Positions 3,103 through 64,000 of a stretch of 64,000 bases of DNA are shown one piece after another. The stretch's first letter is position 1. Every line of letters begins with the position of its first letter. A program made the translations under genes and the position numbers. Under the pieces are notes generated by a model. It searched no databases. It was given only the letters and a program-made list of their open reading frames with translations, and was not told the DNA's origin. The DNA comes from Candidatus Lindowbacteria bacterium RIFCSPLOWO2_12_FULL_62_27 (GTDB taxonomy: Bacteria; Lindowbacteria; 2-12-FULL-62-27): positions 228,561 through 292,560 of the forward strand of contig MFPR01000001.1 in the NCBI GenBank assembly GCA_001784175.1, given 5' to 3'.

Positions 3103-5061
3103 TCAGGCGCGCGGAACCACGATCCGGACGGTGGCGCCGCCGCCCGGCGGACTTTCAATCTGAAGCGTTCCGGAAAATTCCTCTTCCACGATTTTTTGAA
3201 CGATCGGGAGGCCCAGGCCCAGGCCCTTGTCCTTGGTGGTGTAAAAGGGATCGAAAATCCGGGACGGCTCCTCGTGGATCCCGACCCCGTTGTCCGACAC
3301 CTGCACCTCGACCTTCCCGTTTTTCTCCTCCGCCGTCAGACGCACGCGGCCGTCGCCCATCCGGCACGCCTCGACGGCGTTTTTCAGAACATTCACCAGC
3401 GCGCGCTTGAAATGGTCCGGCGAGCCGACCATCGGGATGTCCGGCGCGGAAACCCGCACGGACACGCCGCGGCTCTCGGCCAGAAACGAAATCTCCGCCG
3501 CCGCCTTCTCCGCCACCTCCCGCATCTCGAACCGGCGCTCCTGCTGCGGCTGCCGCTCCAGCGACAGCTCCAGAAACTGGTTGATGGTGCTCGAGATGCT
3601 GGCCACGCCCTCGATGACCCGCTCGGCATGCCGGGCCAGCTTGGGATCGCGCTCCAGTTCCTTTTTGAGCAGCGACGCGAATCCCTCGATGCCGCCGAGG
3701 GGGTTTTTTATTTCGTGCGCGAACTCGGCCATGAGTCGCCGGTAAATGCCCAGATGCTCCTTCCGCGCGATTTCCGCGCGCAGACGCTGGAGTTCCGCGA
3801 TGTCGAGCGCGGTGAACAGCACCCAGGTGGTGCCGTCGCCATGGACGAATCGCGTGGTGGCGTACTGGATCGGCACCTGCGTGTGATCGCCGCGGAGGAG
3901 GTTCCCCTCCGCGATCCGCACCTCCTCGGAAAGATGCAGGCACCGGAGAATGGGATCCGCCTCCTTGCTCGGAAAAAGATACACGTCCTCGCACAGGCGC
4001 TTGTCGATCAGCGCCTCCAGCGAAACCTGGCCGGTCAGAATCAGCGCGTTTCGGTTGACCAGCCGGATCCGGCCGCCCGAATCGACGGCGATGACGGCCG
4101 CCTGGCTCGCTGCCAGGACACGGTCGAGAAAATCGCGGGTCTGGCGCATGTCGTCGTGGATCAGACGGTTTTCCATGAGCAGCAGCGAATAGTCGCGCAT
4201 CGCCCGGGCAATCTCAAGGTCCTCGTCTTTGAACCAGATGTCGTTTTGCCGGTCGGCCAGCACGAAACAGGCCGTGATGTCCCGGATCCGGAACGGCACG
4301 ACCATCACCGAATGCGTGTGCGGCGGAATGTCGCGGCCGCGCTTGAGAACCCGAACGTCGCCCTCGAGGTCCGCGCTTTTCAGCCACTCCTCCAACTCGG
4401 GATTCGCCGGCGCGTTGATCGAGTGGTCGATCGTCCGGTCCCGCCCGCGAAACCGGACCATCGCGGAGGAAACCGGGCGCAAAACTTCGACGAGTTGCCG
4501 GAAATTCTCGCCCAGAAACAAATCGGGATCCATCCGGCCCTCGATGTTCGACACGTTCCGCAGCCGGCGCAGGGTCGTGACCTGCGCGATCTTTTGAAAT
4601 GTCTCGCGTTCCTGCCGGACCTTCTGCTCGACCTGAAAGCCGAGAATGATCGCGACGGTGTAGAGCGGAATCAGGAGCGTCAACGTCCCCGGGGAGAACA
4701 GCTCAAAACCGGGATCGCCGGAGGCCGACGAGAGATAATACAGGATCGTGTTGAAAAACGCCGCGCCCACGCTCCCCACAAGACCAAACGACAGCCCGCC
4801 CGAAAACACCGGCAGAAGGTACAGCCAGAACATGACCTTCTGGTACTCGTGGCTGGCCATCCAGGCGGCGTGGGAAAAGAAAATGTAGAGGAGCAGGATG
4901 GTCAGGTTGGCCTCGGTGTACGGAAACCGCTTTCGAATCGACGGCTCGATGATGAAAAACAGCACGAAGGCCGCGATGATGACGACGTTGACCTTGTTCG
5001 GAAGCTCCTGAAAATAGCTGAAGGCGATGACCAGAAAGAGCGCAAGCCCGAGGAGGCTCAA
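3103..5061 (-). CDS. pilS: Membrane sensor histidine kinase (PilS-like)
   Basis: The N-terminus has about six hydrophobic segments (first ~190 residues). A GAF-like region, a PAS domain, a HisKA domain with MAEFAHEIKNPLGG and an HATPase domain follow (ALVNVLKNAVEA; DNGVGI; DPFYTTKDKGLGLGL). It autophosphorylates and should signal to the adjacent PilR-like regulator. Order and partner match the PilSR pair of T4P loci. The TTG at 5061 would cut the first membrane helix. The same frame continues upstream through GWFLFL, RYLRTETRRETW and EIAAIEAFKQL into the pilC stop region with no stop codon, so translation probably begins upstream at a non-ATG codon between about 5090 and 5140. Confidence 0.85.
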   Translation of the reverse strand: MSLLGLALFLVIAFSYFQELPNKVNVVIIAAFVLFFIIEPSIRKRFPYTEANLTILLLYIFFSHAAWMASHEYQKVMFWLYLLPVFSGGLSFGLVGSVGAAFFNTILYYLSSASGDPGFELFSPGTLTLLIPLYTVAIILGFQVEQKVRQERETFQKIAQVTTLRRLRNVSNIEGRMDPDLFLGENFRQLVEVLRPVSSAMVRFRGRDRTIDHSINAPANPELEEWLKSADLEGDVRVLKRGRDIPPHTHSVMVVPFRIRDITACFVLADRQNDIWFKDEDLEIARAMRDYSLLLMENRLIHDDMRQTRDFLDRVLAASQAAVIAVDSGGRIRLVNRNALILTGQVSLEALIDKRLCEDVYLFPSKEADPILRCLHLSEEVRIAEGNLLRGDHTQVPIQYATTRFVHGDGTTWVLFTALDIAELQRLRAEIARKEHLGIYRRLMAEFAHEIKNPLGGIEGFASLLKKELERDPKLARHAERVIEGVASISSTINQFLELSLERQPQQERRFEMREVAEKAAAEISFLAESRGVSVRVSAPDIPMVGSPDHFKRALVNVLKNAVEACRMGDGRVRLTAEEKNGKVEVQVSDNGVGIHEEPSRIFDPFYTTKDKGLGLGLPIVQKIVEEEFSGTLQIESPPGGGATVRIVVPRA

Positions 5062-5141
5062 AAACAGAAACCAGCCCCACGTCTCCCGCCGCGTCTCCGT
5101 TCGCAGGTAGCGGTATAACTGTTTGAAAGCTTCGATCGCGG

Positions 5142-6350
5142 CTATTTCACCAGGTTGATCATTTCGAACATCGGGAAAAACATGGCCATGACGATGATGC
5201 CGATCGCGCCGCCCATCGCGACGACCATGAGAGGCTCGATCAGGGACGAGAGGGCGTTGACGGTCTCATCCACGATGAGGTCGTAGTTGTCCGCGATCTT
5301 GGTCAGCATCGAGTCCAGCGATCCCGTTTCTTCGCCAACCGCGATCATGTGCGTGACCATCAGCGGAAAGACCTTGGACTTGTGGAGGGGCTTGGAGATC
5401 GTCTCGCCCTGGCTGATCGAGGCCGAAACGTCATCCATCACGGCGGCCAATACTTCGTTGCCGATCGTGTCCTTCACGATCTTGATCGCCTGCAAAATCG
5501 GCACGCCGCTGGCCACGAGCGTGCCCAAGGTCCGCGTGAACCGCGAGATCGCGACTTTCTTGATGAGGTCCCCGAATACCGGAAGTTTCAGGCGGACCTT
5601 GTCGCACTGCAGGCGGCCCCGGCCGGGCTGGTCGTACCAGTTCAACGCAATGATGGCGCCGATAATGCCGAGGATGCACATCCACCAGTAGCCGACCAGA
5701 AAATTGCTGATGGTCATCACGACCCGGGTCGGCAGCGGCAACGCCACGCCCATCTGCAGAAACATGGTCGCGAAGGTCGGAATGATCTTGATCATCAGGA
5801 ACGTCACCACGGTCGTCGCGACCAGCGCCATCACGGCGGGATACGTCATCGCGCCCTTCACTTTCGTCCTCAGCTCCTGCTCCTTCTCGGCAAATTCGGC
5901 CAGCCGGTTCAGGACCTTCTCCAGCACACCGCCGATCTCTCCGGCCTTCACCATGTTGTAATACAGGGGCTGAAAGACCCGCTTGTGCTTGGACAGCGCA
6001 TCGGAAAAAGAACTGCCGCTCTGAATGTCCGAGCTCAGCGTCGTGATCAGCTCCTTCAGCTTCGGATTTTCGGCCTGGTCCTGCAGGATGGTCAGGGCCC
6101 TGAGCAGCGGCAGGCCCGCGTCGAGGAGCGTGGCCATCTGGCGGGTGAACATCGTGGTTTCCTCCGTCTTGACGCCCCGCTGAAGAAACGGAATGGAAAA
6201 CCCGGCCGCTTCCTTCTTCTCCTTCACCTGGTACGGCCGCAGGCCCATCTCGCGCAGCCGAGCCGACGCCAGCTTCTCGCTGGCCGCCTCGATCAGGCCG
6301 TTCATGTCCTTGCCGGCCGCGTCCATCGCCTTGTATTCGAAGACCGGCAT
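5142..6350 (-). CDS. pilC: Type IV pilus inner-membrane platform protein PilC
   Basis: This 402-aa protein has the GspF/PilC layout: a cytoplasmic N-terminal part (FEYKAMDAAGK), then two GspF domains, each followed by membrane helices (for example VMALVATTVVTFLMIKIIPT and a C-terminal MVVAMGGAIGIIVMAMFFP). The motif TRQMATLLDAGLPLLRAL is typical. PilC is the platform on which the PilB and PilT ATPases act to polymerise and depolymerise pilin. It lies 23 nt downstream of pilT and its length is normal for the family. Confidence 0.95.
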   Translation of the reverse strand: MPVFEYKAMDAAGKDMNGLIEAASEKLASARLREMGLRPYQVKEKKEAAGFSIPFLQRGVKTEETTMFTRQMATLLDAGLPLLRALTILQDQAENPKLKELITTLSSDIQSGSSFSDALSKHKRVFQPLYYNMVKAGEIGGVLEKVLNRLAEFAEKEQELRTKVKGAMTYPAVMALVATTVVTFLMIKIIPTFATMFLQMGVALPLPTRVVMTISNFLVGYWWMCILGIIGAIIALNWYDQPGRGRLQCDKVRLKLPVFGDLIKKVAISRFTRTLGTLVASGVPILQAIKIVKDTIGNEVLAAVMDDVSASISQGETISKPLHKSKVFPLMVTHMIAVGEETGSLDSMLTKIADNYDLIVDETVNALSSLIEPLMVVAMGGAIGIIVMAMFFPMFEMINLVK

Positions 6351-6373
6351 CCCTCAATCCCTCCCTGCGGCGT

Positions 6374-7423
6374 TCATATTTGTTTCTGAATCTCCTCGCG
6401 GTCCTGCGCCTTCAGCAGGACCTCCTGATGGGTGATCAGGCCGCGCTGATAGAGATAGATCAGATGCTGATCCATCGTCTGCATGCCGAGTTGCCCTCCG
6501 GTCTGGATCGCCGACACAATGTTGTGGGTTTTCATTTCGCGGATCAGGTTCCGGACCCCGGGCGTCACAAACATGATCTCGAACGCCGCCACCCGGCCGG
6601 CGCCCTGGGACTTCGGACACAGCGTCTGCGAAATCACTCCCTCCAGCGCCACCGAAAGCTGCGTCCGGATCTGCTCCTGCTGGTCCGTCGGAAACACGTC
6701 GATGATCCGGTCGACCGTCGCGGACGCGCTGTTGGTGTGGAGGGTGCCGAACACCAGGTGCCCGGTTTCGGCCGCCGTGATCGCCGCTTCGATCGTCTCC
6801 AAGTCCCGGAGTTCGCCGACCATGATGACGTCCGGGTCCTGCCGCAGGGCCCGCTTCAGCGCCTCCTTGAAGGACGGCACGTCCACGCCCAGCTCCCGGT
6901 GGGTCACCACGCTCTGCTTGTGTTGGTGGATGAATTCGATCGGATCCTCGACTGTGATGATGTGCGTCGACCGCTCGGTGTTGATCCAGTCGATCATCGC
7001 GGCCAGGGTCGTCGTCTTGCCGGAACCGGTCGGGCCGGTCACCAGGACCAAGCCCCTGGGTTTGGTCAGAAGGGTGAGGATGTGTTTCGGGAGGCCCAAC
7101 TGTTCCACGGAATAGATTTTGTTCGGAATCAGCCGGCACACCATGCCGTGGTAGCCGCGCTCCTTGAAAATCGACACGCGGAACCGGCATTTGCTCTCGT
7201 AAGAGTATCCGTAGTCGGACCCGCCGTGCTGTTCGAGCCGGGTGATATGCTCGTCCGGCGTGATGGACTTGACGATGATCTGGGTGTCGTCCGGCGTGAG
7301 GACCGCCGTTTCGATGTTCACCAGTTCCCCGTCGATCCGAAGCACCGGCGGGCGGCCCACCCGGAAGTGGATGTCCGACGCCCCCCGCTCGATGGCCAGC
7401 TCCATCACATCGTGAATGTACAT
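6374..7423 (-). CDS. pilT: Type IV pilus retraction ATPase PilT
   Basis: This 349-aa hexameric ATPase has a PAS-like N-terminal domain (SDIHFRVGRPPVLRIDGEL), Walker A GPTGSGKTT near residues 130-138, the Asp box ITVEDPIEF, Walker B DVIMVGELRDLET and the His box TGHLVFGTLHTN. The C-terminal GVRNLIREMKTHNI resembles the AIRNLIRE motif that separates PilT from PilB. PilT powers retraction, hence twitching and DNA uptake. It lies between pilB and pilC in a compact minus-strand operon. The start ATG at 7423 is 23 nt past the pilB stop. Confidence 0.95.
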   Translation of the reverse strand: MYIHDVMELAIERGASDIHFRVGRPPVLRIDGELVNIETAVLTPDDTQIIVKSITPDEHITRLEQHGGSDYGYSYESKCRFRVSIFKERGYHGMVCRLIPNKIYSVEQLGLPKHILTLLTKPRGLVLVTGPTGSGKTTTLAAMIDWINTERSTHIITVEDPIEFIHQHKQSVVTHRELGVDVPSFKEALKRALRQDPDVIMVGELRDLETIEAAITAAETGHLVFGTLHTNSASATVDRIIDVFPTDQQEQIRTQLSVALEGVISQTLCPKSQGAGRVAAFEIMFVTPGVRNLIREMKTHNIVSAIQTGGQLGMQTMDQHLIYLYQRGLITHQEVLLKAQDREEIQKQI

Positions 7424-61378: not shown

Positions 61379-61415
61379 CACCCCCACCCATCCTCCCCCA
61401 TAAAGGGGGAGGGGT
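61379..61415. repeat. REP-like hairpin, type A
   Basis: CACCCCCACCCATCCTCCCC then CATAAAGGGGGAGGGGTA forms a hairpin just after the aguB stop and may act as a transcript end. Confidence 0.78.
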
Positions 61416-61512: not shown

Positions 61513-62100
61513 ATGCCCAAGCCATACTACACTACCGCAGAAATTGCTCGGATGACGCATGTGAGCGCCACGACGGTGGCGGATTGGATTGATTCTGGGA
61601 AGCTGAAGGCCTACCGGACGGGAGGGGGACACCGGCGGGTGGGGCCGGAGGATTTGCGGGTATTTTTCAGAAATCAAAATATTCCCCTGCCCGACACACT
61701 TTTTTCGGGCCATCCCTCCATATTAATAATAGACGACGACGAGGACTTCGCGGTGCTTTTGAAGGAGCGCCTGGAGCCTCGCAACATGCGGGTCACCATC
61801 GCGACGAGCGGGTTTGAAGGGATTTACAAGCTGGGGCAGTTGCATCCGGACGTTGTGATATTGGACATGATGATGCCGGGCATGAACGGGGACGAGGTGT
61901 GCGAGGAGATCAAGACGACGGAGGAGTTGAAAGACACCTACGTGATCGCGATCACGGCCTACGAAGGGGAGGACCTGAAGCACCGCGTGATGACGAAAGG
62001 CGCGGACGCGTTTATGAAAAAGCCGGCCAAATCCGGTGATTTTGAGGACCTGATGGAATTGATCGTGAAGCACACAGGCTCACCGGCCGCCGCCCGCTGA
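61513..62100 (+). CDS. HTH (MerR/excisionase-type)-receiver regulator (copy 2)
   Basis: GGGGAGG precedes the ATG. Residues 5-55 form the excisionase-like HTH (YTTAEIARMTHVSATTVADW ... GGGHRRVGPEDL). A receiver follows (ILIIDDDEDFAVLLK; VVILDMMMPGMNG; KKPAKSGD). It has the same architecture as 30509-31105. It is followed after 36 nt by another receiver gene, suggesting a phosphorelay. Confidence 0.88.
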   Translation: MPKPYYTTAEIARMTHVSATTVADWIDSGKLKAYRTGGGHRRVGPEDLRVFFRNQNIPLPDTLFSGHPSILIIDDDEDFAVLLKERLEPRNMRVTIATSGFEGIYKLGQLHPDVVILDMMMPGMNGDEVCEEIKTTEELKDTYVIAITAYEGEDLKHRVMTKGADAFMKKPAKSGDFEDLMELIVKHTGSPAAAR

Positions 62101-62136: not shown

Positions 62137-62886
62137 ATGAACGCGACGCTCGTGGAGAGGAAGACGGCTGAGGTATTGTATGTAGAGGACAACGACGACG
62201 ACATTCTGCTGGTACAGAATCTTCTTGGGTCCCGGGGCATTCAGGTGACGGGCGCCCAGAATCTGACGACCGCCCGGGAGCTTTTGTCGGGGCGCAAGTT
62301 TGATCTCGTGCTGTTGGATCACGTTCTTCCGGACGGCAACGGCCTGTCGTTCATCGAGGAGCTGTGGTGGTGTTATCCGGACGTTCCGGTGATTCTGATC
62401 ACGGGCCGGAAAGACGAGTCGCTGGCGCTGGCGGCGATCCGCAAAGGCGCGACGAATTTTGTCCTGAAAGACGAAATCAAAGAAGATCTATACCCGACCC
62501 TTGTGGAAAGCCTGGGCTGGCGGCAATCCGAGGAGGCGGCGGCGATCGGCGTGAGCGACTGGCACATTCCTCCGGACGCGACGGACAAGCTGACGCCGTG
62601 GCTGGAGCCGTATCATGCGCCAAAGAAGGAACCCGGGAGCCGGTTTCTGCACCGCGCCAGCGAATTCTACCAGACGATGCGGAGGAGCAAGCGGAGCGGA
62701 TCTTCGAGCTGTTCCAGCGGGCCGTGGGGCGGGAGGTGGAGGGGACGGGCGCGGGCCTGGCGATTGTGCGGCAGATCGCGGAGCAGCACGGAGGCCGCGC
62801 CTGGATGCGGCCCCGATCGGGGGGCGGGTCGGAATTCATCGTCACGTTCACGCCGCCGGCGCGGGCGGCCCGGGAGGGCGGGTTGA
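62137..62886 (+). CDS. Response regulator receiver, C-terminus out of frame
   Basis: Residues 10-125 form a receiver (VLYVEDNDDDILLVQNLL; LVLLDHVLPDGNG; LITGRKDESLAL). After about residue 180 (FLHRASEFYQTM) the sequence becomes Arg/Ser/Gly-rich and non-protein-like. The other frame from there encodes an HATPase fragment. A deletion or frameshift probably removed the rest of a hybrid kinase and left a receiver with an artificial tail. The stop at 62886 overlaps the pilin gene. Confidence 0.6.
   Translation: MNATLVERKTAEVLYVEDNDDDILLVQNLLGSRGIQVTGAQNLTTARELLSGRKFDLVLLDHVLPDGNGLSFIEELWWCYPDVPVILITGRKDESLALAAIRKGATNFVLKDEIKEDLYPTLVESLGWRQSEEAAAIGVSDWHIPPDATDKLTPWLEPYHAPKKEPGSRFLHRASEFYQTMRRSKRSGSSSCSSGPWGGRWRGRARAWRLCGRSRSSTEAAPGCGPDRGAGRNSSSRSRRRRGRPGRAG
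62670..62866 (+). pseudogene. HATPase remnant (G2 box onward) of a histidine kinase
   Basis: The plus-strand frame that later encodes the pilin reads DDAEEQAERIFELFQRAVGR, VEGTGAGLAIVRQIAEQHGG and SGGGSEFIVTFTP. This is the end of a kinase ATPase domain (GTGLGLAIV-type box), with the HisKA, N-box and G1 region missing. It lies directly after the receiver gene and runs into the pilin. Confidence 0.65.
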
Positions 62887-63335
62887 CCCTCATAGAGTTT
62901 CTGGTCGTGACGGTGATCGTCGGCATCCTGGCGGTTTCGGTGGTCGCGAAGATCAAGACGAGCCTCAACAAGTCGAGGAAGGCGTCGCTGGTGTCCTACA
63001 TGGCGGAGGAGGTCCGGCCGGGCATGACGCAGTATTACGTGGACGAGGGGAAGTATCCGTCGAGCGGCCTTGGGGGGCTGGGCCTCGGCGTCACCGATCC
63101 GACGGTGACGCTGAAGGCGGGCGACTACGTGACGAGGACAATCACGGAGAAGACCGTCGACATCGACGTGACCGTCGTGTGGGTCTACGCGTCGGGCACG
63201 CCGACGCTGGGATCGAATTCGTACTGGTTCGCGTGGTGCCTGATGGGCGCGAGTGCGGACGGGATTGACCTGCCGTGCTACAAGATGACGGACTCGATGC
63301 TGGAGGAGTCGTTGAATTTGTTGCCACCGCCGTAG
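62805..63335 (+). CDS. Type IV pilin-like protein with leader from HATPase sequence
   Basis: ATG 62805 follows GGAGG by 10 nt. The leader ends EGG, followed by LTLIEFLVVTVIVGILAVSVV, a prepilin (class III) motif with Glu at position +5. The ~150-residue mature part has SRKASLVSYMAEEVRPGMTQYYVDEGKYPSSG, like GspG/PilA, and a C-terminal Cys pair (AWCLMGAS ... LPCYK). It would be cut by a prepilin peptidase and built into pili by the machine at 5142-10857. The leader is formed from the C-terminus of the ATPase remnant. Confidence 0.8.
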   Translation: MRPRSGGGSEFIVTFTPPARAAREGGLTLIEFLVVTVIVGILAVSVVAKIKTSLNKSRKASLVSYMAEEVRPGMTQYYVDEGKYPSSGLGGLGLGVTDPTVTLKAGDYVTRTITEKTVDIDVTVVWVYASGTPTLGSNSYWFAWCLMGASADGIDLPCYKMTDSMLEESLNLLPPP

Positions 63336-63406
63336 CCAACACTGCCGCCATGAGCACTTGTCTTTCATGTATCGTTGGAGGACAATGGCAAGGTGGAGGT
63401 GAGGCG

Positions 63407-63553
63407 ATGAGCAAGCCGGTTCTGGATATCAAGATTGGGAAGAAGGATGGCAAAAAGCGGCGGGCGGCGGCGCTCATCGATCCGGAACCATGCAAAAATG
63501 GGACATCACGATCAAAAATGGCCATACTCAAATCTTGGTCGGCCACGACATGA
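63407..63553 (+). CDS. Small ORF, 48 aa, unknown (possible frameshift)
   Basis: GGTGGAGGTGAGG precedes ATG 63407. The first 28 residues (MSKPVLDIKIGKKDGKKRRA, then AALIDPEP) look protein-like; the last 20 do not. A frameshift near 63488 into the next frame would continue with KWDITIKNGHTQILVGHDMN. The true product may be a 59-aa protein. Confidence 0.4.
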   Translation: MSKPVLDIKIGKKDGKKRRAAALIDPEPCKNGTSRSKMAILKSWSATT

Positions 63554-63585
63554 ACGACCCCGACGCATCGGCGGCGTTGGAATGA
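63490..63585 (+). CDS. Small ORF, 31 aa, coupled to the beta-helix gene
   Basis: MQKWDITIKNGHTQILVGHD, then MNDPDASAALE. The stop overlaps the start of the next gene in ATGA (63582-63585), which supports translation of this frame. It may be the shifted continuation of the 48-aa ORF. Confidence 0.35.
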   Translation: MQKWDITIKNGHTQILVGHDMNDPDASAALE

Positions 63586-64000
63586 ATAAACCTATAAACC
63601 TACGCCTGACCCCCGATGCACGCACACGACTTTCTTTCTGCCTCCTCATTTCCTTGTTTTGCATTGTCCGGGACCAGCCCGCTTACGCCGCATGGTTTGT
63701 CAATGACACATCCGCAACCGGCGATTCTTACACGTTCGCCCCTGGCTACGACACGCAGCCCGGGTCCGCCAACTCACCCTTCAGGACTGTTTCCCAAGCT
63801 CTTAAATCAGCCAAATCCGGAGATACCATCTACATTGATGCGGGCCTCTATACGGAGACTGTTGTCATCGACACGGATTACATCAGTCTCATCGGCAAGG
63901 ACTCGAACACGACGGTGATCGACCCGCCGGGGGCGAACTGGGTCAGCGGTCTCTACGGCATCTACGCGGCGAACCGGACAGGGCTGGCGATCAAGGATCT
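63582..64000 (+). CDS. Secreted right-handed beta-helix protein, N-terminal part (cut by window edge)
   Basis: The protein begins MNKPINLRLTPDARTRLSFC, then LLISLFCIVRDQPAYA, a signal peptide. The mature start AWFVNDTSATGDSYTFAPGYDTQPGSANSPFRTVSQAL, GDTIYIDAGLYTETVVID and ISLIGKDSNTTVID follow the DUF1565/pectate-lyase-like beta-helix pattern. Such proteins are large secreted or surface-anchored polysaccharide-binding or adhesin-like proteins. No stop is found up to position 64000. Confidence 0.82.
   Translation, partial: MNKPINLRLTPDARTRLSFCLLISLFCIVRDQPAYAAWFVNDTSATGDSYTFAPGYDTQPGSANSPFRTVSQALKSAKSGDTIYIDAGLYTETVVIDTDYISLIGKDSNTTVIDPPGANWVSGLYGIYAANRTGLAIKD

Follow-up and report, generated by a model that had tools for sequence, protein, structure and literature searches.

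Introduction

Known prepilin leaders are 6-26 residues long, or about 15-30 residues in type IVb (PMC4471445), and these lengths, together with a mostly hydrophilic or neutral composition, were used here as the leader criterion for type IV pilins. The closest counterparts of the locus described below are found in G002, a genome of another genus of the same family. One of its contigs (G002:C142, L060) carries in a row an HTH-REC gene, a REC-PAS-kinase gene, the gene of a 479-aa sensor kinase of the HisKA-HATPase kind (4069-5508), a receiver gene (5505-6038) and a pilin gene (6040-6531). An intact 292-aa REC-PAS protein (L014:671-1549), with its PAS domain at residues 171-286, is encoded by a separate gene on a different contig (G002:C45).

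In the genome under study (G000), the corresponding genes are run together at one site, where the receiver gene is shortened, the sensor kinase is reduced to its C-terminal end and the pilin gene is complete in other respects. In our reading, to which we give a probability of about 0.7, a cluster of two-component and pilin genes has undergone several deletions in succession, and this site is the scar. Here we present the features of the locus, its likely history and the evidence for a start site of the pilin, together with the alternatives.

Source sequence and gene order

The window, i.e. the whole stretch of DNA that was analysed, comprises 64,000 nucleotides (G000:C1:228561-292560). Its right end (window position 64000) is also the end of the contig, at a distance of 0.7-1.9 kb from the site. 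The window does not contain a single N, and all joints were read from one draft assembly of G000, the sole representative of its genus in the comparison.

Upstream of the site lies an intact HTH-receiver gene (61513-62100, + strand; HTH_17/MerR-like and Response_reg), a kind of gene that is also part of the G002 cluster. Intergenic DNA at about 61383-61415 contains a short repeat with palindromic structure (CCTCCCCC...GGGGGAGG type), and similar strings occur in G002 (e.g., L060:6565-6645). The receiver ORF (62137-62886, + strand) then overlies the out-of-frame ATPase end of a kinase (62682-62849), which continues in frame into the pilin up to 63335. This arrangement, first proposed in a sequence-only reading, was borne out by frame reading and Pfam matches. 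The open frames alone would not be far above chance, because about 41% of arbitrary 68-codon frames on the + strand of the window are free of stops; the domain matches at the locus are far above chance.

Features of the genes

The receiver ORF encodes a complete REC domain (about 62173-62490; Response_reg with 70.3 bits, profile positions 1-106 of 111, residues 13-118), followed by a linker up to about 62676 and an out-of-frame tail of about 68 residues. The identity to the REC-PAS protein of G002 is 53% through receiver and linker, extending as far as RFLGRARMFYRT, shortly ahead of the PAS domain, and the similarity ends at about 62676 in the window. A receiver domain as in REC-PAS proteins is present, and the C-terminal PAS domain was lost at the first joint.

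The kinase remnant (62682-62849, + strand) consists of the last 56 conserved codons of HATPase_c (EEQAERIF...EFIVTF). The Pfam match (44 bits) covers only positions 51-108 of the 111 in the profile, and no HisKA was found. Histidine kinases were recognized by HisKA plus a complete HATPase_c with N box, and the remnant falls outside this class; lacking both N box and HisKA, it is unable to act as a kinase. It shares 77% amino acid identity over 56 aa with the C-terminal end of the 479-aa kinase of G002, and the differences are distributed over codon positions 1/2/3 as 10/7/34, an excess at the third position that fits a sequence long kept as protein in the kinase frame. The sequence-only reading had named a complete kinase as evidence that would speak against it, and no complete copy of the related kinase was found elsewhere in G000, where the best match in the kinase search was a kinase of another type, MASE1 (53% across the catalytic part). 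A search of plasmids returned generic kinase matches only. A second kinase remnant was observed in L146 (G000:C4:44200-46200) at 883-1272 on the + strand, with HATPase_c positions 35-109 and without the 5' part of the kinase. It is located well inside the 508-kb contig C4, so kinase remnants in this draft are not confined to contig ends.

The mature part of the pilin (62883-63335, + strand) begins with LTLIEFLVV, is full-length in comparison with the G002 orthologue (46-47% identity over its length) and ends with a stop codon; the pilin body is complete. The cleavage site REGG/LTLIEFLVVTVIVGILAV has the properties of a class III signal peptide, namely Gly at -1, a hydrophobic stretch and Glu at +5, and both Cys are retained. 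The profile scores exceed the cut-offs for N_methyl (PF07963; 21.3 vs 21.2 bits) and TIGR02532 (18.9 vs 16.3). Assignment to the GspG major pseudopilins (TIGR01710) was rejected, with 36.4 bits against a curated cut-off of 88.85. Wider searches yielded a close pilin orthologue in the G002 genome only. Structure prediction with an alignment of two rows gave a model of low quality (mean pLDDT 41). The genome also encodes a prepilin peptidase (Peptidase_A24 at G000:C43:191352-191705, 59.8 bits).

The pilin gene is followed by the remnant of a retropepsin-like gene (RVP, PF00077; 63407-63585, + strand), of which the first 25 and about the last 32 codons are left, out of frame with each other. Intact homologues are L114 in G000 itself and L115 in G001. 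A 28-bp repeat, AATAAACCTATAAACCTACGCCTGACCC, occupies positions 63585-63612 and overlaps the apparent start (ATG 63582) of a beta-helix ORF; copies of this REP-element-like sequence occur singly or in inverted pairs in G000:C12, G001:C300 and several contigs of G002. The ORF running off the contig end (63814-64000) resembles some 35 stretches of G000 with 70-85% DNA identity (on C6, C14, C15, C18, C24, C30, C34 and others), representing a large family of secreted beta-helix-like proteins.

Joints and history of the locus

At the first joint (62677-62682, + strand) the start of the PAS region of the REC-PAS gene is connected, with a frame shift of -1, to the ERIF box of the sensor kinase, the similarity to which begins at 62682. 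Judged by the lengths in G002, this joint has cost the REC-PAS protein about 118 residues and the kinase 413. At the second joint (62850-62877, + strand) the kinase end is in frame with the pilin, and in comparison with L060 the kinase stop and the original pilin start are missing; the receiver gene between kinase and pilin was, by the G002 gene order, probably lost as well. The third joint, at about 63482-63487, breaks the frame of the retropepsin-like gene.

The case for a deletion scar is built on the intact REC-PAS protein and the kinase-receiver-pilin row of G002, the 77% identity of the kinase remnant, the pilin orthologue, the lack of a complete copy of the kinase in G000, the third deletion next door, the remnant on C4 and the Peptidase_A24 gene. 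Judged by G002, the ancestral set may have comprised genes for a REC-PAS protein, for a sensor kinase of the HisKA-HATPase kind and for a pilin whose short leader was its own, perhaps together with a CheY-like receiver. A first deletion would have fused the start of the PAS region out of frame to the ERIF box, and a second would have removed the kinase stop and the pilin start, so that the kinase frame runs on into the pilin. A separate protein made up of the receiver domain and a junk tail could still be produced. Because the REC-PAS and kinase genes sit on different contigs in G002, we infer, rather than observe, their former adjacency.

The sequence-only reading had ascribed the junction to a deletion inside a hybrid kinase that captured a pilin gene. 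A deletion does best explain how the receiver came to adjoin the kinase end. A single hybrid kinase and a newly captured pilin were both rejected, because G002 has two separate genes for REC-PAS protein and kinase, and because its orthologous pilin already lies downstream of the related kinase with one gene between them.

An assembly artefact near the contig end, with sequence from more than one locus or strain wrongly combined, is quite unlikely. The contig does break off in a member of a large family of similar genes, and the three joints are close together. However, the window is free of N, the pieces on either side of the joints are relatives of one kind of cluster, and no copy in G000 is close enough to the kinase piece to have misled the assembler (best DNA identity 78%), all of which speaks against misassembly.

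Translation start of the pilin

Between 62805 and 62882, the pilin frame offers a single start codon, the ATG at 62805-62807; a further in-frame start codon, GTG, lies upstream at 62766. The string GGAGG (62790-62794, + strand), a possible Shine-Dalgarno site, is located 10 nt upstream of this ATG, inside the HGG codons of the kinase. The sequence-only reading was correct in listing this ATG, the upstream GGAGG and the motif EGG/LTLIEF. The likeliest start of the pilin would be ATG 62805, within kinase-derived sequence. The putative leader (MRPRSGGGSEFIVTFTPPARAAREGG; 62805-62882, + strand), largely kinase-derived and ending in REGG, has 26 residues provided that this ATG is the start, which is inside the known range. 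A new prepilin leader is plausible, whereas the 'new control' of the pilin that had also been suggested is not supported, its sole basis being the position of the start.

In other kinases, the column of ATG 62805 is occupied by Val, Ala, Ile, Leu or Phe. Of the 38 kinase C-termini compared, all taken from the loci analysed, the remnant at this site alone has Met there, and it alone has an in-frame ATG accompanied by a Shine-Dalgarno match that extends over at least 5 bases. Because three of the 38 kinase ends have an in-frame ATG plus a Shine-Dalgarno-like match under looser criteria, and because the test was chosen after the sequence had been seen, this rarity is a hint, not proof, that a start may have been acquired after the deletion. 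Translation of the pilin from ATG 62805 has, in our estimate, about an even chance. If it occurs, the genome's prepilin peptidase would cut the leader between REGG and LTLIEF. Translation of the receiver frame, which crosses ATG 62805 and ends at 62886, about 80 nt into the pilin ORF, might hinder rather than help initiation. A more specific proposal is possible but doubtful: substitutions after the deletion (a Val-type codon to ATG, a synonymous change to GGAGG) would have made a new ribosome-binding site and start, and a functional pilin would now use the kinase-derived residues as its leader.

With odds somewhat short of even, the deletions are real but the whole of 62137-63585 is dead, the receiver tail, kinase piece and pilin being pseudogene debris in which ATG and GGAGG occur by chance. 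Three joints within 0.9 kb and a broken gene on either side of the pilin are consistent with such decay, as are the three of 38 kinase ends found under looser criteria. The complete pilin frame with Gly-1, Glu5 and both Cys argues against it, and so does the finding that none of the other kinase ends compared has Met at the column or an ATG with a match of at least 5 bases.

A designed fusion, in which a -1 frameshift or an upstream start yields a receiver-ATPase-pilin or ATPase-pilin protein, is highly improbable. The ATPase and pilin frames are indeed continuous (62364-63335), with the in-frame GTG at 62766, but the ATPase piece is devoid of N box and HisKA, and slippery heptamers rich in A/T are absent; the strings present are CCCGGGN and GGGGGGC, and they do not occur at the first joint. 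Programmed frameshifting was rejected for this lack of a suitable slippery site. We know of no precedent for a long domain ahead of a prepilin cleavage site.

Comparison with known systems

A literature search on kinase/pilin fusions or pseudogenes retrieved nothing related. If the pilin is still made, the deletion scar would be a compact case, in a little-sampled phylum, in which the coding sequence of an unrelated gene came to supply start site and signal peptide after a deletion; otherwise it represents local gene erosion and a warning against reading such joints as designed fusions. The locus illustrates gene decay in a modest way, with a start site that may have been rescued, and does not amount to a system of a new kind.

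Each part has an intact counterpart. The receiver ORF resembles the REC-PAS protein L014:671-1549 up to the start of the PAS domain, but ends in an out-of-frame tail instead. The kinase remnant matches the last 56 conserved residues of the sensor kinase L060:4069-5508, but only the C-terminal half of HATPase_c is kept, the sensor, HisKA, N box and own stop being absent. Both ends of the retropepsin-like proteins L114 and L115 are recognizable at 63407-63585, whereas about 80 codons of the middle are missing and the frame is broken. The pilin agrees with type IV pilins and pseudopilins (PF07963, TIGR02532) in Gly-1, hydrophobic stretch and Glu5, and with its orthologue L060:6040-6531 in Leu at +1; it differs from the latter, whose leader (MFWTKQAQTG) starts at an ATG of its own and is 10 residues long, in the putative 26-residue leader derived largely from the kinase.
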